Positions 16,019-33,862 of a stretch of DNA of 64,000 nt are shown here, piece by piece. A program made the translations under genes and the position numbers. A model generated the notes under the pieces. That model did not search any database. It saw only the letters and a list, made by a program, of their open reading frames with translations, and was not told where the DNA came from. This DNA is from Chlorobaculum parvum NCIB 8327 (lineage in GTDB: Bacteria > Bacteroidota > Chlorobiia > Chlorobiales > Chlorobiaceae). The stretch is from the NCBI RefSeq assembly GCF_000020505.1, contig NC_011027.1, positions 852,001-916,000 on the forward strand, read 5' to 3'. Numbering within the stretch: position 1 is the stretch's first letter; the number at the start of each line of letters is the position of its first letter.

Positions 16019-17292
16019 TCATGAGCTGCCCTGAAACAGGCCTCAATCGAAGCTCCCCGACGATAATCCCCAGTGTATCCGAAGCCTGTAAAACTACTGA
16101 TATACTTATCTATTTTTTCAAGAAGCAGATGATGCCTGGATGAGTATGCGCATAACCCTTTAGAGAAGTATCGGTACACAAAGCCCTCTTTTTTATTGTT
16201 CTGGATATTAAAGTAAGGACTTGCTAGCTTTTCAGCAAGTTCAATTGCCTCCTCAGGGGACGTTTTTTCAGTGATTGCGGCTCTTGATGCTTTACCACTA
16301 AAAGTATATCTGACCATATCCAGATCATTAAGTCCATAAGCTCCCGCATTACTCAATGGTAAATTACGGCCGAAAACCATCGCCCGACGTTTTTTCTGAA
16401 ATACGTCATCGCTGTATTTTACAATGGCTACGCTTACAGGATAATAGCTGATTTGACGAAGCAATTCTGCTACTTCCGGTCTCTCATTCTGGAGTAAAGC
16501 TGCCAAGCTATGAGCAGGAAGGGCTGAAATGACTTTGTCATAATTCCCCGTGCCAGGAATTCCCTGGTGCAGGTAATCTATGCGAAACGTATCCCTGTCT
16601 TTGGTTATAGCGGTGATATGGTGCCCGGTCAGTATTCGGTGCGAATCTGACTCATAATTGTTTGCGAAGGTATTGAGCAGATCATGCATTCCAATGCTCA
16701 ATTGTTCGAAGCTGTCCAAGGCAAGGCCAAGGTTCGAGCCAAAATTACCGGGATAGCATTCCTCGGGCTCAGCCCCGTTCATTCTTACTGTGATCGGTCT
16801 TATTACATTGTCGATACACTGGCGGTTGAGGTATTGGTCAAGAGTGAGATGGTCAAACTGATCGCTCAGCGATTTGAAACAATCACTGCCTAGCACCCCT
16901 TGGCTTCGGTCATTCCAGATTGCTTTGATGTGAGGGTAAAGACGAATAATTCCTTGCAAGCCGCACAGTTGAACGAGCTTGAAAATGTTAAGCAATGGAT
17001 ATCCTTCGCGGCTAATGGAGATGAGGCGTCCGTTAAGCAGCTGGGATGTGTTGATTCCAAAATATTCGTATTCTGGATTTCCGTATGTCTTGGCAAATTC
17101 ACGGAAATGATTGTAGTAATTTCCAATGTTTTTACCGCCGAAATCTACCCAGCGCCCTTGCAGTAAATCGCTACCAACTCTACCGCCTATTTGTTTTTCA
17201 GATTCAAAAAGGTCTACCCTTACTTGCCGTTTGGCAAGGTAAAATGCAGCAGCAATGCCTGATATTCCGCTACCAATAACTGCTACACGCAT
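15991..17292 (-). CDS. FAD-dependent amine oxidase / protoporphyrinogen oxidase-like oxidoreductase
   Basis: 433 residues. Seen: an N-terminal dinucleotide-binding motif (AVIGSGISGIAAAFYLAK), then the FAD ribose Glu and LFESEKQIGGRVGS, and a C-terminal FAD closing segment GFGYTGDYRRGASIEACFRA. These place it among flavin amine oxidases, desaturases and NAD(P)-binding Rossmann oxidoreductases. Substrate unknown. The gene is wedged between the AfsA-like gene (10-bp overlap at its start) and the CqsS-like kinase (28-bp overlap at its end), so it is very likely part of their pathway; a tailoring step on a small signal molecule is an inference. No membrane anchor is evident. Confidence 0.85.
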   Translation of the reverse strand: MRVAVIGSGISGIAAAFYLAKRQVRVDLFESEKQIGGRVGSDLLQGRWVDFGGKNIGNYYNHFREFAKTYGNPEYEYFGINTSQLLNGRLISISREGYPLLNIFKLVQLCGLQGIIRLYPHIKAIWNDRSQGVLGSDCFKSLSDQFDHLTLDQYLNRQCIDNVIRPITVRMNGAEPEECYPGNFGSNLGLALDSFEQLSIGMHDLLNTFANNYESDSHRILTGHHITAITKDRDTFRIDYLHQGIPGTGNYDKVISALPAHSLAALLQNERPEVAELLRQISYYPVSVAIVKYSDDVFQKKRRAMVFGRNLPLSNAGAYGLNDLDMVRYTFSGKASRAAITEKTSPEEAIELAEKLASPYFNIQNNKKEGFVYRYFSKGLCAYSSRHHLLLEKIDKYISSFTGFGYTGDYRRGASIEACFRAAHECVETVIGN

Positions 17293-18168
17293 GGTGTTGA
17301 TAACGTCGATTCATGAAATTTTTTGAGCTTCGAATAAAAATTTGACTTATACCGTTCTGTTATTTTTTTTAGGCGTTGTTCTTTTTGCTGATAACGCTCA
17401 TTGGTAATGCATGCGAATGCTTTCAGAACGGTATCCGCACAGAGTCGACCCCACTGGAAAACCTGAATATAGATTCCAGCTTCCGTATCCTTACTTGTTT
17501 CGTCTACTGTAAAATCGCTGTAAGACCTGCATACTATAGGTGATTCACGCTCAAGAAAAGCGTGAAAATTCGTGTTGTAGTTTAGCAGGGCAAGTTTTCC
17601 ATCGATCGGTAATCCTTGGTAATGAGCGCTTGCAATTGCAGCTTGTCTCAATGCTTCGAGAATAAGCATTCCTTGGAAGTGTGGTGCATCATGATCGAAT
17701 TTTAGCTCGGCAGTTTCTGAAAAAATATTGAAGTAACGCAGACCTCCAATTGTGAATGGTTCCGAGACCAAAACGTTGGCATCGTGTTGCTTGTGAACCA
17801 TGTTTTTCTGTATTGGATTGGGCAACGCATCATTTTGACCAATGGCGATTGGACTGTTGATAAGGCTTCTGAGGTCAAGCGGAAGTTTCCCCATTAGGCG
17901 GGCTGCCGTATCAATGCCGAAAAGCTCATCATTGCTGAAACCCAAGCTAGCGATTGTTTCAAGTTTTTCGTAAAGACCGGGATGAATACGGCGATATTCT
18001 TGGGAAAGGAAGGGTTGACATGTATTCCCAAGAAGTCGCTGGAAGTTGCATGCTTCTTCAGGTGATTCGGCTCTGAGTACCAGCTGATCTTCAGGAGAAA
18101 ATGGAAGGCTGTCTCCGTCGATGAGCAGAATATAGGGGGGGGAACCGGAACGCAGTATCGGGTATCAT
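17283..18168 (-). CDS. AfsA-like hotdog protein, apparent frameshift at C8 tract near 5' end
   Basis: The clear coding part gives a C-terminal hotdog domain with AfsA hallmarks: MVHKQHDANVLVSEPF, then HDAPHFQGMLILEALRQAA and a following AHYQGLPI. AfsA condenses a beta-ketoacyl-ACP with dihydroxyacetone phosphate to begin gamma-butyrolactone signals. A protein-like frame continues upstream of the only in-frame start (TTG at 17945) as far as about 18160 (ILLIDGDSLPF, QEYRRIHPGLYEKLE), so the gene really begins earlier. ATG at 18168, preceded by AGGAAGGGG, would give 294 residues if the C tract at 18135-18142 had seven Cs; ATG at 18217 would read through with nine. With the eight present, neither does. 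It may be phase-variable, recoded, a pseudogene or a sequencing error. It overlaps the FAD gene. Confidence 0.75.
18135..18142 (-). repeat. C8 homopolymer tract (G8 on + strand)
   Basis: Eight identical bases, 26-33 bases downstream of the ATG at 18168. Their number decides which upstream start connects to the AfsA-like frame: C7 or C10 connects ATG 18168, C6 or C9 connects ATG 18217, and C8 connects neither. Confidence 0.9.
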
Positions 18169-21038: not shown

Positions 21039-22283
21039 TTACCTCGAAGCGTGCAGCGCCGTGACCGGGTCGAGCCGTGAGGCTTTCCAGGCCGGGAAAA
21101 GGCCGAACGAGATGCCGATTGCCGAGCAGACCGTCAGCGACACGATGACCCACAGCCAAGGGAACATGACTGGCAGGTTGAATTTGACCGCCACCAGGTT
21201 GCCCGCTCCCGCCCCCAGAGCGATACCTACGAGCCCACCGCCCAGCGAAAGCAACAGCGCTTCGAGCAGGAACTGCTGCAAGATCGAGCGCCGCGGCGCG
21301 CCGACCGACATGCGTATGCCGATCTCCCGCGTCCGTTCGGTCACGCTCACCAGCATGATGTTCATGATGCCCACGCCTGCTGTCAGCAGCGCCATGAAGC
21401 TGATGATGAAAGCGCCGGTGCCGATAATGTTCTGAATGTCGCGAAATGACTCCACCAGCGACTCATTGGTTCTGATTTCGAAATCATTCGGCATTTTCAC
21501 CGTCAGACCGCGCGCGAGCCGCATTGCCCCGATGGCCTGATCGATGGTCTGCTGGTAGGTTTTCTGCGAGGTCGCCTCAACGCTGATGGCTATGCTGGAC
21601 TCCTGATTCACCTCTTCGAGGAAGCGGGTGATCGGGATGAGGACGAAGTTGTCCTGGCTCTGACCGAATGCCGGTCCTTTCGAACTGAACACGCCGACGA
21701 CGCGCCCCGCCTTGCCGTTGATTTTGATCGTCTTGCCGATCGGGTTCTGCCCCTCCCGGAACAGGTAGGCAGCCAGATCGCTGCCAAGCACGATATTAGC
21801 CGAGGCGTTTCTGATGTCGTTTTCATTCAGATTTCGTCCCTGCACAATATCGAAACCGTTGGCCAGCGCAAAGTTCTCATCTCCTCCCGACAGGGTGATG
21901 TCAGGATTGGTGACCTCTGTGGCGTATGAGGCCTGGATGCCCTGAAGCGACACGACAAGCCCGATGTTGCTCGCGCTGTCGCCCATGTACTTTTTGAACC
22001 GCTGTGCCTGCTGCCAGGTGATATCCTGCCGGTTGGCATAGATGTTACGGCTGTGGCCGCTGCCGAAAACCGTGGCGGGATATTTCTGGATCTGAAAGGT
22101 GTTCGCACCGAGGCTCGACAGGCCCGAGGCAATCGAGCGGTCAACCGCGTCGAGCGCCGTCATCACCGCGATGATCGAGAATACGCCAACGGCAACGCCG
22201 AGCGTGGTAAGCGCCGAGCGCATCTTGTTGACCGCCAGTGATGTTGCGGCCTGTATCAGGGTTTCCCGGATCGAGAGCATCAT
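21039..22283 (-). CDS. MacB-type ABC transporter permease (second of pair)
   Basis: 414 residues. Seen: an N-terminal membrane helix (MRSALTTLGVAVGVFSIIAVM), a large periplasmic MacB-core domain (residues 50-270, TFQIQKYPA, LARGLTVKMPNDFEIRTNE), and three C-terminal helices of the FtsX domain with the coupling segment VSVTERTREIGIRMSVGAPRRSI. These proteins do not move substrate across the inner membrane but transmit ATPase motion to the periplasm and adaptor. It is the last gene of the leftward tolC-adaptor-ATPase-permease-permease operon, 2 bp after the first permease. Confidence 0.93.
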   Translation of the reverse strand: MMLSIRETLIQAATSLAVNKMRSALTTLGVAVGVFSIIAVMTALDAVDRSIASGLSSLGANTFQIQKYPATVFGSGHSRNIYANRQDITWQQAQRFKKYMGDSASNIGLVVSLQGIQASYATEVTNPDITLSGGDENFALANGFDIVQGRNLNENDIRNASANIVLGSDLAAYLFREGQNPIGKTIKINGKAGRVVGVFSSKGPAFGQSQDNFVLIPITRFLEEVNQESSIAISVEATSQKTYQQTIDQAIGAMRLARGLTVKMPNDFEIRTNESLVESFRDIQNIIGTGAFIISFMALLTAGVGIMNIMLVSVTERTREIGIRMSVGAPRRSILQQFLLEALLLSLGGGLVGIALGAGAGNLVAVKFNLPVMFPWLWVIVSLTVCSAIGISFGLFPAWKASRLDPVTALHASR

Positions 22284-22285
22284 GG

Positions 22286-23551
22286 CTATTCGTATCTGAG
22301 TGAATCGGCCGGGTCGAGCTTCGAGGCGGTGATCGCCGGGGCCAGGCCAGAAATGATGCCGGTCGCCACAGAAATCACCAGGCTGGTCACCACGAGCACC
22401 GGCGAGAAGCTGACGGGGAAGCTCGGCAGCAGGTTCTGAATCAGGATGGTGATCGACAGGGCAGTGGCAAGCCCGATGAAGCCGCCGATCAGGCAGATCA
22501 TGACCGACTCGATCAGAAACTGCAACAGAATCGTGCGGCGGCGCGCGCCGAGCGCTTTGCGCAGGCCGATCTCTCGCGTGCGCTCCTTGACGCTCACGAA
22601 GGTGATGTTCATAATGCCGATTGCGCCTACAAAAAGCGACATGCCGGTGATGAAGATGCCCGCCGCCGCGATACCGTTCTTGATCGGGTCGAGCTGGCTT
22701 TTGAAGGCCTGCTGTTCGTTGATGCCGAAATCGTTGGCTCTGGCGGGTGGTAGCCTCCGGATGCGTCGCATCAGGCCGGTCAGCTCATCCTTCGCTTCGG
22801 GAATCCGTTTTTCATCCTTGACCTTGACCCTGATGGTGACCATCGAGGTCTTGCCGTACACCTTCGTGAACGCGCGCAACGGCATGATGAGCTGGTTGTC
22901 GAAGCTGAACAGGCCGAGGAACTTGCCCTGTTTCTTGAACACTCCCACCACGCGCACGTTGTGGTTGCGCAACCGGATCGATTTACCGACCACCCGTCCA
23001 TCCGGAAAAAGTCCCGTGGCGATGTCGTCGCCGATGACGCAGACCGGATCACCGGCCGCCGACTCCTGCGCGGTGAAAAAACGTCCTGCTGACAAGTCTC
23101 CCGAAGCTGTCAGCGGGTAGTCCTGATTGGTACCGAGCGCGAAGATCTGCAGAATCTCGCGGTCGCGGTAGCGCGCCGAGGCCTGGATGGTGGACATCTG
23201 CGGTACGGCCACCACCAGCTCCGAATTCGGATCGTCGGCAATGATGCGGTTGATTTCGTCGGCGTAGCGGGTTTCGATGTCCGGCCGGTTGCGATAGCGC
23301 CACCACGATCCCATCGTGCTCCAGGAGCCTTTCTGCACATAGACTACGTCGTAACCGAGCATGGCCAGGCTGCGGTCGAAGCCGATGTCGATGCCATTGA
23401 TCGCCGTGCCCATCATGGTGATCGCCACGATGCCGATAATCACGCCGAGCGCCGTCAGGAAAGAGCGGATTTTGTTCGCCTTGATCTGATAGACAGCGAT
23501 GTTCAGGCTCTCGATCGTCTCGTATCGAAGCTGCCGGACGCGGTCATTCAT
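22286..23551 (-). CDS. MacB-type ABC transporter permease (first of pair)
   Basis: 421 residues with the same layout as its neighbour: helix near residues 25-50 ([20 protein letters not shown]), periplasmic MacB core, and the FtsX domain containing [27 protein letters not shown]. The two permeases probably form a heterodimer. It overlaps the upstream ATPase gene (ATGA), so the ATPase and permease are made in step. The separate ATPase and permease chains differ from E. coli MacB, where they are fused. Confidence 0.93.
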
Positions 23552-24240
23552 GGCGCGGAGTCGCTTTCGATTTTGCCGTCGCGCAGGCGGATGATGCGGC
23601 GGGTGTAGCGGGCAATGTCCTCTTCGTGAGTGATGAGAATGATGGTGTTGCCCGCATCGGAGAGTTTGCTGAAAATCTCCATGATGTCGTGGCTGGTGGC
23701 CGTGTCGAGGTTGCCGGTCGGCTCGTCGGCAAGGATGATCGACGGGTTGTTGATCAGCGCCCGCGCGATGGCCACGCGCTGGATCTGGCCGCCTGAAAGT
23801 TCGCCGGGCTTGTGGTTGATCCGGTCAGCGAGGCCGACCTGTTCGAGCGCCTGCCGCGCCCGTTCACGGCGCTCTTCGGGCGATACGCCGGCGTAGATGA
23901 GCGGCAGCTCGACGTTGCGCAGGCAGTCGAGCCGCGAGAGCAGGTTGAAGGTCTGGAACACGAAGCCGATTTCCCGGTTGCGGATGCGGGCCAGCTCGTC
24001 GTCATCCATGTCGGCCACGTTCTGGCCGTTCAGCTCGTAGTGTCCGGAGGTGGGGGTGTCGAGGCAGCCGAGGATGTTCATCAAGGTCGATTTGCCGCTG
24101 CCCGACGGGCCCATGATGGCCGCATAGTCGTTTTTGCGGAAGTCCAGATTGATGCCGTCCAGCGCCTTGACCGTCTGGTCGCCCATGGTGTAATAGCGGC
24201 AGAGGTCGCTGATCCGGATGATGTGCGGCTGCTCGCTCAT
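23548..24240 (-). CDS. MacB/LolD-type ABC transporter ATP-binding protein
   Basis: 230 residues. Seen: Walker [10 protein letters not shown] near residue 44, Q loop [12 protein letters not shown], signature [15 protein letters not shown] near residue 147, Walker [13 protein letters not shown] near residue 170, and switch His in LITHEED. The N-terminal [23 protein letters not shown] is typical of the MacB/LolD subfamily. It powers the two permeases downstream and overlaps both the adaptor gene (ATGA at its start) and the first permease. Confidence 0.96.
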
Positions 24241-25505
24241 CGCTTCTCCTGAAGCTTCACGGTGCTGCCGTCCTGCAATTCACGGCTGATGGCGCCGTAA
24301 CTGCCCGACACGACCTCTTCGCCCTCTTTCAGTCCGTCGAGGATAATAATATGGGTGTTGTCGGTCGTACCGGTTTTGACCTTTCTGAAACGAACACGTT
24401 TGCCTTCAAGCACGAATACGCCTTCCGTTTCATCGTTGACGCGTTGATTCTTGTTGACCTGTACCACGTTGTCGTTGCCTGACGAATCGGTTGGTGTCGC
24501 CGCTTTTTTGCCGCTCGCCGTCCGCATGGTGACGCTTTGGATTGGCACCACCAGTGCGTTCGGCACTCGCTGGGTTTCGATATCCGCCGTGCCGCTCATG
24601 CCGGGCTTGAGCAGGCGCTGGTGGTTGAGGATTTTGATTTTGACCTCGAAGTTGGTTACCTCCTCCTGCGTGTTTGCGGCCTGCGTTTTGGCTGAATTGG
24701 CGATTTCGCTCACCTCACCTTTGAAGGTGCGTTCGCCGAAGGCATCGACCGTTATGGTGACCGGGTTGCCGACCTGCACGTTCACGATGTCGTTTTCGTT
24801 CACCTCGACCTTGAGCAGCATGTTGTCCAGATCGGCGATCTTGAGCACCTCGGTGCCGGGGAACTGGCCGGTGCCGACCACGCGCTCGCCGGACTTGCTG
24901 CTCAGCGAAATAATGGTGCCGTTGATGGGCGAACGCACCACGGTTTTCGTCAAGCGCTCTTCGTTCTGGTCGAGCAGGCTCTGGTTCTGGTCGATGGAAT
25001 ATCGGGCCGCTTTCCAGGCTGCCTGGCTCGTCTCGGCGTTGGTCTTCGCCGACAGCCAGTCGGTCTGCGAAATGAGTTTGTCTTTGTACAGAATGTCGGC
25101 TTTGCGGAAATCGTCCTCCGCCTTGAGCATCCGTGCCTGCGCTTCAAGGCTTTGTGCCTTGGCGAGATTGAGCTGCGCCCGGCTCTGCTTGACCTGATTG
25201 ACGTAGATGTCCGGCTGGATGCGGAAGAGCAGGTCGCCCGTTTTGACCTCCTGACCCTCGACAATCGGCAGCTCGATGATCTCACCCGACACGTCAGGCG
25301 ACATGGCGACCTCCACCTCGGGCTCGATTTTGCCGGTTGCCGTCACCAGGTGCACTACTTCCTTGCGGAACGCCTTTTCAGTCGTGACCTCGATCGGTTT
25401 TTCCCGCGTGTTCAGCCAGAAGATGAGCCCGCCACCGGCGACGAGCAGCGTGACGGCGATGATGATGATAGTCCGGAACTTGCCGGAGCGCTGTTTCTTT
25501 GTCAT
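24237..25505 (-). CDS. MacA-type periplasmic adaptor (membrane fusion protein)
   Basis: 422 residues. Seen: an N-terminal membrane anchor ([20 protein letters not shown]), a split lipoyl half-motif ([31 protein letters not shown]), a long alpha-helical hairpin with coiled-coil character (residues 95-190), the second lipoyl half ([14 protein letters not shown]) and beta-barrel/membrane-proximal domains. It would bridge the MacB-type permeases and the TolC channel. It ends in ATGA overlap with the ATPase gene. The cargo is unknown: this subfamily exports peptides, lipids or macrolide-like compounds. Confidence 0.94.
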
Positions 25506-25520
25506 AAATCGTTGTCTGTT

Positions 25521-26922
25521 CTATTCAATGCTTGTGGCCCCGGCTGTGAAGTCGAGCAGCGCTTTTTGCAGCGCGAGGTTGTAGAGCGCCTGTGTCACCG
25601 AAGATCGGGCGTTGAAAAGCGCCGCTCGCGACGCGCTGAGTTCGACGAAGCCGGACGCGCCAAGTTCGTATTTGCGCTGAATGCCTGCGAAGGCTGATTC
25701 GGCGGCTTTCAGGCTCGTACGGGCCGAGGCGATCTGGTCGAACGCCGCCCGGTACTCTTCGGCAACCTGCTGCAGGTCGATCTGGATGTCATCCTTCAAA
25801 TCCTCGTAATCGAGCTGCTTGTTCAGCTGCGCGATTTTGGCCGACTGGACCGCGTAGCGCGACTGGAAGCCGTCGAAGATCGTCCACGAGAGGTTGAGAG
25901 AGAGCGCATAGTCGGTGCCGTTCTCAAGCTGCTTGCCGAGAGACGGATAGGGATAATCGTAGTTCATGCCCTGAAGCATCATCGAGTAAGAATCGATTGC
26001 ATCAGTGCTTACAGAAAAGGCCAGGTCGAGTTTTGGCAGGCGGGTTCCGGCGGTGTTCCTGACATCCCAGCGGGCGGCGTTGCTCTGGAGTGCCTCCGCT
26101 TCGAGGTCGGCGCGGCGGGCAAGGGCGGTGGCTTTCAGGGCGTTCAGGTCGATCTCAGGAGAGAGCGCGGCAAGCGTTGCGGTGTCGACCGGTTCGAGCG
26201 TGATTTCCGTTTCCGGATCGATGCGCAGCCGCCGGAGCAGTTCGAGCTTGCTTCGGCGCAGGCGGTTTTCGGCCCGAATGACTTCGAGCTTGCCGTTGCT
26301 GGTGTCGGCCTGCTGCTGGTAGAGGTCGGTTATCGATTTCAGGCCGATGTTGAACTGCCGCTCGGTGAGGGTCAACAGGTCGCTGGCCGATTTGAGGTTC
26401 TCCTGGGCGATGCCGAGCAGCTCCCGATCGAGCAGCACCTGGTAGTAGCTCTGTGTTACGTCGTAAGCGACTGCCTCCTTTGCCCGCTGGAGGCTGAATC
26501 CTGATGCCTTTTTCCGGTCGAGCGCCGATTGCAGGGCCGCGTAATCGCTCAGACCGTTGAACAGGTTGAGCGATGCGGTCAGGCTGACATCGACCGTCGA
26601 GGACTCGGTGCGGGTTTTGTAGGCGTCGGTGGAGGTGCCGCCATACAGGGGCGAGGAAACGCTGTAGGAGCGGTTGACCGCCGTTGGTACCCAGCTGGCC
26701 GAAGAGGTGACTTTGGGCAGGAAGCTGCCATAGCTTTTCAGCAGCTCGACGCCCTGAAGGTGCCGGGCGTTTTCGGCTTTTTTGTATCGACGAGGCATTT
26801 TCAAGCGCTATCGAGACGCATTCGGAGAGCGACAGGTTTTTCTGAGGCCGCTCGGTGGCACGGATGGCTGCGGCGGGCAGCAGAAGGAAGATGAGAAAAA
26901 TGAGAACGCTTTTGTTAACCAT
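25521..26922 (-). CDS. TolC-family outer-membrane channel, frame interrupted at an A6 tract
   Basis: The N-terminus, read from the ATG at 26922, has a signal peptide (SVLIFLIFLLLPAAAIRA) and the usual NLSLSECVSIALENASS. The frame then breaks: the rest of the protein (KAENARHLQGVELLKSYG onward, with the OEP repeats and a C-terminal half ending in LLDFTAG) lies in another frame. Removing one A from the A6 run at 26778-26783 joins them as SSIQKAENARHL and restores a 466-residue protein of normal length. Both halves keep coding character, so the damage is recent, regulated or a sequencing error. It is the first gene of the efflux operon, 15 bp before the adaptor. Confidence 0.85.
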
Positions 26923-29740: not shown

Positions 29741-30262
29741 GGGTAAAAGGAAGCGATGCATAAAGTCGGTTTGTCGAATGAAAGGATGTGATACAATGGC
29801 TTATTTTTGGTTAAGTTATTGATAAATAATGGTTTGTTGTTGAAGTGTTTTTCTTGGGGGAGTTGTGCGGTAGGATGTCGGCCAGAATGCTGACTAAATT
29901 CTGCAAAAGTTGATTGATGATGCCGATTTCATCACTTCTGCTATCATAAATCCCTTTTTCTCTCATCCATCCAGTTGATTCTCATGCAGCCGGTCGCTTC
30001 TGTTGGTAATCCGCCCTTTTCTTCTTCTGTCTTTTCATACGGTACAACCACTTACGACTAAACAAATCCCGGTAGGCGTCACGGATTTGTAACCATGATT
30101 TTCTTTCCTGTAACACTTCCTCAATGAGCCGGTAATAGCCGCTCGGTAACTTTGAATCGTATTAATCGAGGGGAGTTCCGAACGCGTTTTCGGGATGGTA
30201 AACAGCCCGATCCCTCTCGTCATTTCCAGCACATCAACCGTTACAACTTACAGGGAGATCCT
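29741..30262. other. Long non-coding leader upstream of the permuted phosphatase gene
   Basis: About 520 bp with no convincing gene. A hairpin with ACAAATCC (30062-30069) and GGATTTGT (30083-30090) arms is present. CTATCATAAAT near 29940 resembles half of a Pho box, but its second half is missing. The promoter of the downstream gene is expected here; its ribosome site AGGGAG is at 30252-30257. Confidence 0.45.
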
Positions 30263-33200
30263 ATGCCAAAGAACAAACATATCTCGCTGCTCAATGAGAG
30301 CGTGAATGGTAAAGGCAATCATAACTCGCTGCTCAATGCCAGCGTGGACGGTCTCGGCAATGTCGTGACCCTCTATTTTTCAGAAAAACTCGATGCGTCG
30401 AGCCTTCCGGCGCTCAAGCAGTTTACCGTTCTCAGCGATGATGAAAAACAGACGATCACGGGAGTTGAGGTGGTCAACAACCAGGTTGTCCTGACCTTGG
30501 CGTCACCCATCGACAGCTCGATGCAGCTCACGGTTTCGTATACCGCAAAGCCGCATACTCTTGAGAAGCTCGATGGTCACAAGGTGGTCTCCTTTCAAAA
30601 TGCCGAGGTTGAAAACCATCTTTCGCTGACCCCATCGGAGAGCGAGTCCTTTGAGTTCGCCTCGACAATCCAGATGGATTTCGGCGCTGAGATTTCGGCG
30701 TTCGATGCCGACAGCGGACGTCTGTTCGTGACCTCTCCCGAAGACGGCCTTCAGGTTGTCAGCATCGACGGTCAGTTGCAGATGACCAAGATTGGCACCA
30801 TCGACCTCGGCAGCAACGTGGTCAACAGCGTCTCCGTCAGCCACGGCATCGTCGCGGTTGCGGTCGCCAATGCGGACAAAACGTTGCCGGGTACGGTCTA
30901 CTTCCTCGATGCAGATGCGGACACAATTGATGCTTCGATGATTCTCGGCAGCGTCACGGTCGGCGCGAATCCTGACATGCTGACCTTCACACCCGATGGC
31001 ACCAAGGTGCTCGTGGCCAACGAGGGCGAAATGGCGAGCGTGGATAATGATCCCGAAGGCTCGGTGAGCATCATCGACCTCAGCGCCGGAGTAGAATTTG
31101 CGACCGTCGCAACCGCCGGATTCGGCGCGTTCAACGACCAGATCGATGCGCTCAAAGAGTCTGGCGTCAGGCTCTTTGCCGGTGAGGAGGGCTTTGAAAG
31201 CACGACGGTCGCCCAAGACCTCGAACCAGAATACATCAGCATCTCTCCCGACGGCACAACGGCGTTCGTGACGCTTCAGGAGAACAACGCTATCGCCATT
31301 CTCGCCATCGCTTCGGGTGAGTTCACCGACATCGTGCCGCTTGGGTTGAAGAGCTTCTCCAGCCTGCCGTTCGACGGTAGCGACAAGGATGGCATCGATC
31401 TCGAAACTGGCCTTCCTGTTTACGGTCAGTACATGCCGGACGCCATTGCGTCGTTTACCGGCGCGGACGGTCACGCCTACTATGTGATCGCGAACGAAGG
31501 CGATGACCGCGACGATTTTCTGGACACGCCGGAGAGCGCCCGGGTCAAAGACCTCACGCTCGATCCGACGGTTTTTCCTGACGCGGCGGAGCTTCAGACG
31601 AATAGCGAACTCGGCCGCCTCAACGTCTCGAATGCGCCGGGCAACAACGGTGACACCGATGGCGACGGCGACATCGACCAGCTCCTCGCTTACGGCGCCC
31701 GTTCGTTCAGCATTCTCGATTCCGAAGGTAACATCGTTTTCGACAGTGGTTCGCATATCGAGCAGTTTGTCGCCGAGAGTGGCCTGTTCACCGATGCTTA
31801 TGGCGATGGGCTTTTCGATGATGGCCGTTCCGACAACAAGGGGCCGGAACCGGAGGGCATCACCATCGGCGTCGTGGATGGAAAAACCCTCGCATTCGTC
31901 ACCCTCGAACGGGGTGGCGGCGGTGTGATGGTTTATGACGTCACCGATCCGTCGGATGTCAGCTTCGTGCAGTATCTGAGGAATCCCGGTGATGTGAGTC
32001 CGGAAGGTGTGCTGTTCATCTCGGCTGCCGATAGCCCGACCGGCCACGAGTTGCTGATTGTCAGCAATGAGGTGTCCAATACCGTGAGCATCTTCGAGGT
32101 GGACAGCTCCGTGAAGGTCGGCATTGAAATCGAAGATGTGGCCGTACTGGCGGGTGAGCAGCTCAACTACCGCGTGCTTTCCAACGCCTTTACCGATGTT
32201 GATGGCGACACGCTGACTTACACGGCAACGTTGGCCGACGGTTCGGAGCTGCCCGATTGGCTGCACTTCGATGCGTCGAGCCACGATCTTGAGACGATGG
32301 AAGCGTACTTCCTGAACGGGGATTCGTCGAAGTGGGCCACCGACTCGGCCTCGGCAATCACGGCGATGGTGACCGGCGAGAAGACCGATGCGGGCAACAT
32401 CTCGTGGGCGGCGGGCGATCCTGAAGGCGGCGAGCTGACGACGATTGCCGAAACGTTGCGCGCTGACTACGGCTTCGCTATCGGCGTGGCCAGCACGGTG
32501 GAGTTTTCGCATGCAACGCCCGCCGGTGTGGTGAGCCACGACGTGAACCGTGGCGACAAGTGGGACATCGCCCATGAAATCCTGACCGAAACGCAGCCGG
32601 AAGTGGTGATTGGCGCGGGCTTCGACAGCTACTTTGCCAAGGCGGTCAAGGATGCGGCAGGTTATGACAGAGACCTCGACAACAACGGCTACAACGATGA
32701 ATACGATGCTTTCCACACCGGGCAGAACACCGAATACACCGCCAACGTGGAGTTCGTGGAGCGCGCGTCGGGCGTTGACGGCGGCGATGCGCTGGCCGCA
32801 GCCGCAGCGAACGTTGACCTCGCTGCCGGCGAAAGGCTGTTCGGCTTGTTCGGTACCACGGGCGGCCATTTTGAGTACTACGATGTAGCGGATACTCCGG
32901 GCGAGGTAACGATCACGCGCAGCACGGGTGACGGCACTCCGACGGTTGATGAAGACCCGACGATGGCTGAAATGGTCGATGCTGCGCTGACGGTGCTGAA
33001 CCAGGACGAGGACGGCTTCTTCATTATGTTCGAACAGGGCGATATCGACTGGAGCAACCACGCCAACGACTACGAAAGCATGATCGGTGGCGTCTATGAC
33101 CTCGATCTTGCGGTTCAGGCAGTGGAGCAATTTGTCGATCTGAATCCTGATGATGACATCGACTGGTCGAACACGCTGGTGATCGTCACGAGCGACCACT

Positions 33201-33862
33201 CGAACAGCTACATGCGCAACGAGAGCGTGCTTGGCATCGGCGACCTCGGCGAGGTGGGTACGGACGTGACCTACGCATCCGGCGGTCACACCAACGAGCT
33301 GGTGACGGTCTCTGCGCGCGGCGCGGGTGCGGAGTACTTCGCCGAGCTTGCGGGTGAGATTTACGCCGGCACGGACATCATCGACAACACGCAGATTTAC
33401 GATGCGATGATGAACGCCGCCGAGAATGCCGGCGCCGAGCACATCATTTTGATGATCGGCGATGGCATGAACATCGAGCATGAAATTGCCGCAAGCCGCT
33501 ATCTGTACGGTGAAGACTTCGGCCTGTCATGGCAGGACTGGGGCGAGCTGGAAGACGGCTGGACGGGCTACGCTACGACCTGGGATGTGACGTCGTACAA
33601 CAACTATGCGGCACTGAACGGCGTGGATCCGTATGATCCCGATACCTACGATCCGACCATTGGCTACGATCCGGCACAGGGCGGCACGACGCCGTATCCG
33701 GTGGCGATGATTTTCAGCGGTACGCCGGACAGTGAAGATGTCGGCGCGCTGGAGATTGTGGTGACAGCTACCGACGAGAGCGGCGCGTACGCGAGCCAGA
33801 CCTTCGATCTGATCGTTGGTGTGCCCGTGGATGCTGATGGTAGCCTAGCTCTTGCGGTCTGA
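30263..33862 (+). CDS. Choice-of-anchor-I protein with circularly permuted alkaline phosphatase inside a split cadherin-like domain
   Basis: 1199 residues from the ATG at 30263 (ribosome site CAGGGAGATC); the frame opens 37 codons earlier. Seen in order: no Sec signal; a SwmB-like beta domain (25-105); a beta-propeller of the choice-of-anchor-I type (about 125-615; NEGEMASVDNDPEGSVSIID, LLIVSNEVSNTVSIFEVD) with Ca-loop-like DTDGDGDID; the first half of a cadherin-like domain (617-680, DVDGDTLTY, LPDWLHFDAS); alkaline phosphatase motifs in rotated order: TDSASA with nucleophile Ser695, SHATPA, FEQGDIDWSNHAND, TSDHSN, GGHTNE (His1009), and only then ILMIGDGM with Asp1067; last, the other cadherin half (FSGTPDSEDVG, 1150-1190). 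All metal ligands are present. Probably exported without Sec, perhaps by type I secretion; releases phosphate outside the cell. Confidence 0.88.
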   Translation: MPKNKHISLLNESVNGKGNHNSLLNASVDGLGNVVTLYFSEKLDASSLPALKQFTVLSDDEKQTITGVEVVNNQVVLTLASPIDSSMQLTVSYTAKPHTLEKLDGHKVVSFQNAEVENHLSLTPSESESFEFASTIQMDFGAEISAFDADSGRLFVTSPEDGLQVVSIDGQLQMTKIGTIDLGSNVVNSVSVSHGIVAVAVANADKTLPGTVYFLDADADTIDASMILGSVTVGANPDMLTFTPDGTKVLVANEGEMASVDNDPEGSVSIIDLSAGVEFATVATAGFGAFNDQIDALKESGVRLFAGEEGFESTTVAQDLEPEYISISPDGTTAFVTLQENNAIAILAIASGEFTDIVPLGLKSFSSLPFDGSDKDGIDLETGLPVYGQYMPDAIASFTGADGHAYYVIANEGDDRDDFLDTPESARVKDLTLDPTVFPDAAELQTNSELGRLNVSNAPGNNGDTDGDGDIDQLLAYGARSFSILDSEGNIVFDSGSHIEQFVAESGLFTDAYGDGLFDDGRSDNKGPEPEGITIGVVDGKTLAFVTLERGGGGVMVYDVTDPSDVSFVQYLRNPGDVSPEGVLFISAADSPTGHELLIVSNEVSNTVSIFEVDSSVKVGIEIEDVAVLAGEQLNYRVLSNAFTDVDGDTLTYTATLADGSELPDWLHFDASSHDLETMEAYFLNGDSSKWATDSASAITAMVTGEKTDAGNISWAAGDPEGGELTTIAETLRADYGFAIGVASTVEFSHATPAGVVSHDVNRGDKWDIAHEILTETQPEVVIGAGFDSYFAKAVKDAAGYDRDLDNNGYNDEYDAFHTGQNTEYTANVEFVERASGVDGGDALAAAAANVDLAAGERLFGLFGTTGGHFEYYDVADTPGEVTITRSTGDGTPTVDEDPTMAEMVDAALTVLNQDEDGFFIMFEQGDIDWSNHANDYESMIGGVYDLDLAVQAVEQFVDLNPDDDIDWSNTLVIVTSDHSNSYMRNESVLGIGDLGEVGTDVTYASGGHTNELVTVSARGAGAEYFAELAGEIYAGTDIIDNTQIYDAMMNAAENAGAEHIILMIGDGMNIEHEIAASRYLYGEDFGLSWQDWGELEDGWTGYATTWDVTSYNNYAALNGVDPYDPDTYDPTIGYDPAQGGTTPYPVAMIFSGTPDSEDVGALEIVVTATDESGAYASQTFDLIVGVPVDADGSLALAV

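Follow-up and report, generated by a model that had tools for sequence, protein, structure and literature searches.

Sequence analysis of a circularly permuted alkaline phosphatase domain nested in an He_PIG domain of Chlorobaculum parvum NCIB 8327

A gene of Chlorobaculum parvum NCIB 8327 encodes a PhoA-type alkaline phosphatase (AP) domain that has its N-terminal part at its end and that interrupts an He_PIG domain of a multidomain protein, which is probably secreted or on the surface. We found the gene in a window of 64,000 nucleotides (the whole stretch of DNA that was analyzed) from a host genome that is one contig of 2,289,249 bases. Taken together, the data presented below make it probable, in our judgment, that this is a competent natural AP permutant held in an He_PIG turn, that it serves phosphate supply outside the cytoplasm, and that it originated by duplication and loss.

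Results

Domain layout of the protein

The open reading frame occupies positions 30152-33862 of the window on the + strand, with a first TTG at 30152, an ATG at 30263 and the stop at 33862. Starting from the ATG, the protein has 1199 amino acids, and residues are numbered from this ATG (the P0001 residue number minus 37). Its features are as follows.

30263..33862, + strand: whole ORF from the ATG, with an SWM-like repeat, choice-of-anchor I and a permuted AP splitting He_PIG
30329..30547, + strand: SWM_repeat (PF13753; Pfam; P0001 60-132)
30686..32071, + strand: choice-of-anchor I domain (NF038117 / PF22494; Pfam/NCBIfam; P0001 179-640)
32117..32278, + strand: left part of the host He_PIG (cadherin-like Ig), last residues LPDWLHFDAS (Pfam, AP profile, joined-halves test)
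32279..33430, + strand: AP C part, from the native residues before the nucleophile strand to the C-terminal helix; profile 88-459 (AP profile)
33431..33709, + strand: AP N part, from the native first strand with IGDGM to before the nucleophile strand; profile 4-91 (AP profile)
33710..33829, + strand: right part of the host He_PIG, first residues IFSGTPDSEDVG (Pfam, joined-halves test)

The choice-of-anchor I domain was matched with E=3.2e-99 in Pfam and with 498.7 bits by NF038117, above the curated cut-off of 300. The Pfam match to the AP family PF00245 (E=2.8e-33, 115.9 bits) was also above its curated cut-off of 24.4, and it lay at P0001 726-1018, covering only profile positions 56-313 of 423. 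The C terminus, DADGSLALAV (33800-33862), is like the end of L003, a relative of greater length (GDVDGSWSAVAV); it looks as though the NCIB 8327 protein lacked about 270 dockerin-like residues.

Circular permutation of the AP domain

The permuted AP comprises residues 673-1149, and its motifs run in the order TDSA (Ser695), HATPA, EQGDIDWSNH, TSDHS, GGHTNE and IGDGM (Asp1067), exactly as the initial annotation had described them. Because IGDGM comes last, out of the canonical N-to-C motif order of PF00245, we file the domain as a permuted variant of that family and not as an ordinary member. When the rotated sequence was searched against Pfam and the PDB, the match still stopped short of the N part, which is too diverged from general APs; a profile of closer relatives was needed. 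We built an AP profile of 463 positions from 27 APs that have the normal order and come from diverse phyla, with C-part identities of about 38-48%. Over the full length of the protein, this profile matched with positions 88-459 at P0001 710-1092 and then with positions 4-91 at P0001 1094-1186. When the insert was scored in each of its 477 rotations, the given order reached 425.8 bits and the optimum 545.9 bits. The best rotation starts at the native N terminus, just before IGDGM, at G-AEHIILMIGDGM, and covers positions 5-458 of 463, with no residues clearly lost or duplicated relative to the profile. The rotated sequence thus aligns end to end with the parent profile, whereas the given order does not; the first fifth of the AP domain has thus moved to its end. 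The same two parts are directly adjacent, in normal order, in a single AP from Myxococcota (L069). At the level of sequence, this is a natural circular permutation of a PhoA-type AP; the rotation scan, with its optimum just before IGDGM, bears out the permutation that had been proposed.

Nesting in an He_PIG domain

Left split, the host He_PIG (PF05345) was matched in two stretches with 41.9 bits (Pfam); with its halves joined, it gave one match over profile positions 9-95 of 96 with 61.6 bits. A relative, L006, carries an intact He_PIG (LPGWLSFNAGTRTFSGTPDNDEVG; LPGWLSFNAGTRTFSGTP) between two AP-carrying He_PIG units, which places the AP insertion in the turn between FDAS and FSGTP. As judged from these alignments, the permuted AP sits in a beta-turn of one He_PIG domain, and the empty-site test and the intact domain of the relative agree with the earlier claim that it is nested in a split cadherin-like unit. 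In comparisons with three relatives, the He_PIG halves evolve faster than the AP parts. The insertion loop lies about 20 residues ahead of the nucleophile, suggesting that it may tether or tune the active site.

Active site and selection

Active-site residues were placed by alignment with Vibrio AP and TAB5 AP, whose ligands and catalytic residues are known.

32342..32347, + strand: Asp694-Ser695, metal ligand and nucleophile (PhoA D101-S102)
32510..32518, + strand: His750-Ala-Thr752 (PhoA D153/T155 positions)
32549..32551, + strand: Arg763, phosphate binding (PhoA R166)
33032..33061, + strand: Glu924, Asp929, His933 (PhoA E322, D327, H331)
33194..33199, + strand: Asp978-His979 (PhoA D369-H370)
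33287..33289, + strand: His1009 (PhoA H412)
33461..33463, + strand: Asp1067 of IGDGM (PhoA D51)

The Ser nucleophile, the ligands of two zinc ions and magnesium and the phosphate-binding Arg are all present, as in PF00245, and the statement that every metal ligand is kept was therefore correct. These residues are invariant in the 17 aligned rows. Against three relatives, dN/dS was 0.06-0.24 in the C part and 0-0.17 in the N part, so purifying selection acts on both.

Distribution in Chlorobiaceae

Of 86 Chlorobiaceae genomes, about 25 have the permuted, nested layout, which answers the proposed search for the same order in other genomes. Among the genomes of the order (98) and of the phylum (394), the C-to-N junction was limited to Chlorobiaceae, where 26 genomes including NCIB 8327 carry it, one or two of them as contig-end fragments only. 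Most carrier genomes have one permuted copy, flanked by its own He_PIG halves, and a few have tandem copies. A profile search of the NCIB 8327 genome found no second PF00245 gene, suggesting that the permuted form may be the main PhoA-type phosphatase of Chlorobaculum parvum; in eight other Chlorobiaceae genomes, it occurs together with an ordinary AP.

In some relatives, calcineurin-like phosphoesterase (Metallophos), phytase-like and 5'-nucleotidase domains are on the same chain, which we count as support for the explanation given at the outset. Very long chains with several phosphate-ester domains occur in L033 (200-11536), L034, L035 and L038. The L033 chain has the full set: Metallophos, a phytase-like domain interrupting choice-of-anchor I, a 5'-nucleotidase and two permuted APs; the choice-of-anchor I domain split by the phytase-like domain is a second case of nesting in such proteins. 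The C-terminal ends vary among relatives and, judged by eye, are RTX-like, dockerin-like or a hydrophobic tail.

Relatives outside Chlorobiaceae

A scan outside Chlorobiaceae found normal-order single APs in many phyla, some of them fused to choice-of-anchor I (L059, L064 and L067, from Desulfuromonadaceae/Geobacteraceae). Normal-order head-to-tail doubles were found in Myxococcota/Deltaproteobacteria and in Deferribacterota (L057, L058, L060, L148, L149). The junction search in Deferribacterota turned up four genomes that have doubles or a broken double; in one double AP of this phylum, L147, the reading frame is interrupted. A permuted triple array is known from one Chloroflexota MAG (L051, 6803-13081), where a signal-like N terminus is followed by the parts C-N-C-N-C-N and by BACON-like and choice-of-anchor I domains; no further N part was found in this locus. 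In the phyla to which the Chloroflexota, Deltaproteobacteria and Desulfuromonadaceae genomes belong, searches for the junction, one of them run on a set lacking a positive control, gave no genomes other than those already known.

The C-part tree unites the Chlorobiaceae sequences in a monophyletic group whose sister is the permuted triple of L051 (support 100/98), and the N-part tree agrees (97/93), so that the two parts derive from a single AP lineage and the protein is no chimera. The permuted clade does not have the doubles as its sister group, and monophyly of all C-to-N fused forms was not rejected (p-AU 0.27). The DNT-to-GDGM junction is exactly 29 amino acids long in 30 of 32 cases, and its length is equal or nearly so in normal-order doubles. 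From this constant length, we would expect a tight helix-to-strand turn and not a loose linker. The relatives outside Chlorobiaceae plausibly include intermediates.

Upstream element and neighbors in the window

One further feature precedes the open reading frame.

30087..30114, + strand: conserved upstream element TTGTAACC-N-TGTAAC, possibly regulatory, conserved in six relatives

It belongs to a block (30040-30150, GCGTCACGGATTTGTAACCATGATTTTCTTTCCTGTAACAC...TCAATGAGCCGGTAA) that is kept in six relatives while its flanks diverge, and it holds two TGTAAC copies 21 bases apart. A Pho-box reading was considered, but no second copy was found in the genome within 3 mismatches of the full pattern, and thus no regulon can be claimed. 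Elsewhere in the window, an AfsA-type (A-factor hotdog) protein, unexpected in a green sulfur bacterium, is encoded at 17286-17945, next to an amine oxidase and a hybrid histidine kinase. On the minus strand, 21039-26922 encodes MacA/HlyD, an ABC ATPase, two MacB/FtsX permeases and a TolC-like protein, that is, a tripartite exporter. A link of the permuted AP gene to this MacAB-TolC-like exporter is unsupported.

Discussion

The arrangement suggests how the enzyme could be built and what it could do. The native C-terminal helix would run straight into the native first strand with IGDGM, joining the native termini, and the new ends would fall in the loop that immediately precedes the nucleophile strand and be held together there by the host He_PIG turn; the fold would then close in one chain. 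Carried by a secreted or surface choice-of-anchor I protein, the AP would cleave organic phosphate esters outside the cytoplasm and so supply phosphate. Surface organophosphate hydrolysis is the most likely function predicted from the sequence.

The main rival to closure in a single chain is an exchange in which the N part of one chain or tandem copy completes the C part of another, giving a domain-swapped enzyme and not a single-chain permutant. PhoA-type APs are usually dimers, some genomes have tandem copies, and partners could swap at the junction, whose length the normal-order doubles share. However, the native C-terminal helix is barely extended by the junction, and a single copy with its own He_PIG halves, as in most genomes, suits a closed unit in which the ends meet; we therefore regard such an exchange as quite improbable. 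It is still harder to see the permuted domain as a non-catalytic relic or binding module, because all catalytic residues are kept and selection on both parts is strongly purifying; this we consider very unlikely. An artefact of assembly or gene model is refuted, since the genome is a single contig and the same order occurs in many independent genomes of two genera.

As to origin, the permuted domain would result if an AP was duplicated head to tail and its first N part and last C part were then lost, and this is the most likely route suggested by the sequences. The N segment could also have been moved directly, by cut and paste within the gene, and the placement of the doubles apart from the Chlorobiaceae form would suit such a move. 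But the sister L051 is a head-to-tail array in permuted phase, which duplication directly explains, and a single origin of all fused forms was not rejected, so that we hold a direct move to be unlikely. With duplication and loss as the preferred route, the extant stages would be the single AP, the anchored single, the head-to-tail double, the permuted triple array and the Ig-nested single permutant. We lean slightly toward the broader reading that this is the first recognized natural circular permutation in the AP superfamily, with its stages still extant, and that the He_PIG loop may tether or tune the active site.

It is rare for a natural circular permutant of a metalloenzyme to have visible intermediates, and the permuted AP would allow a direct test of the duplication-and-loss route to permutation. 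It combines permutation and domain nesting in one protein, and it breaks an assumption built into profile annotation, that the N-terminal motif of an AP comes first. No natural AP permutant was described in the literature searched on AP permutation and domain architecture (mainly titles and abstracts, with few subscription papers), and within this literature the earlier statement that no such family had been described stands. A circular permutant of E. coli AP, with reportedly high specific activity, has been engineered (Kojima, Ayabe and Ueda 2005, cited in PMC2395249); it is man-made, whereas the NCIB 8327 form is natural, and it shows that the AP fold tolerates permutation with activity retained.

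The PhoA-type APs of PF00245 (E. coli PhoA, Vibrio AP 3e2d, TAB5 AP 2iuc/2w5x) are homologous to the permuted domain and have the same nucleophile, metal ligands and phosphate-binding Arg, but the NCIB 8327 form is rotated, with the first approximately 90 residues at the end, and nested in a 1199-amino acid multidomain protein. The closest single-domain relatives are normal-order APs of Lamprocystis, Rubrivivax, Geobacter and others (L061-L108), with about 38-48% identity in the C part and 37-56% in the N part; they differ in having the N part before the C part, in being mostly about 500 amino acids long and in lacking the nesting. L059, L064 and L067 combine AP and choice-of-anchor I in one protein, as does the permuted form, but their AP comes first, in normal order, and without a split He_PIG. 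The doubles L057, L058, L060, L148 and L149 share the C-to-N junction with the permuted form, but their first part is an N part and their last a C part, and thus they contain complete normal-order units.
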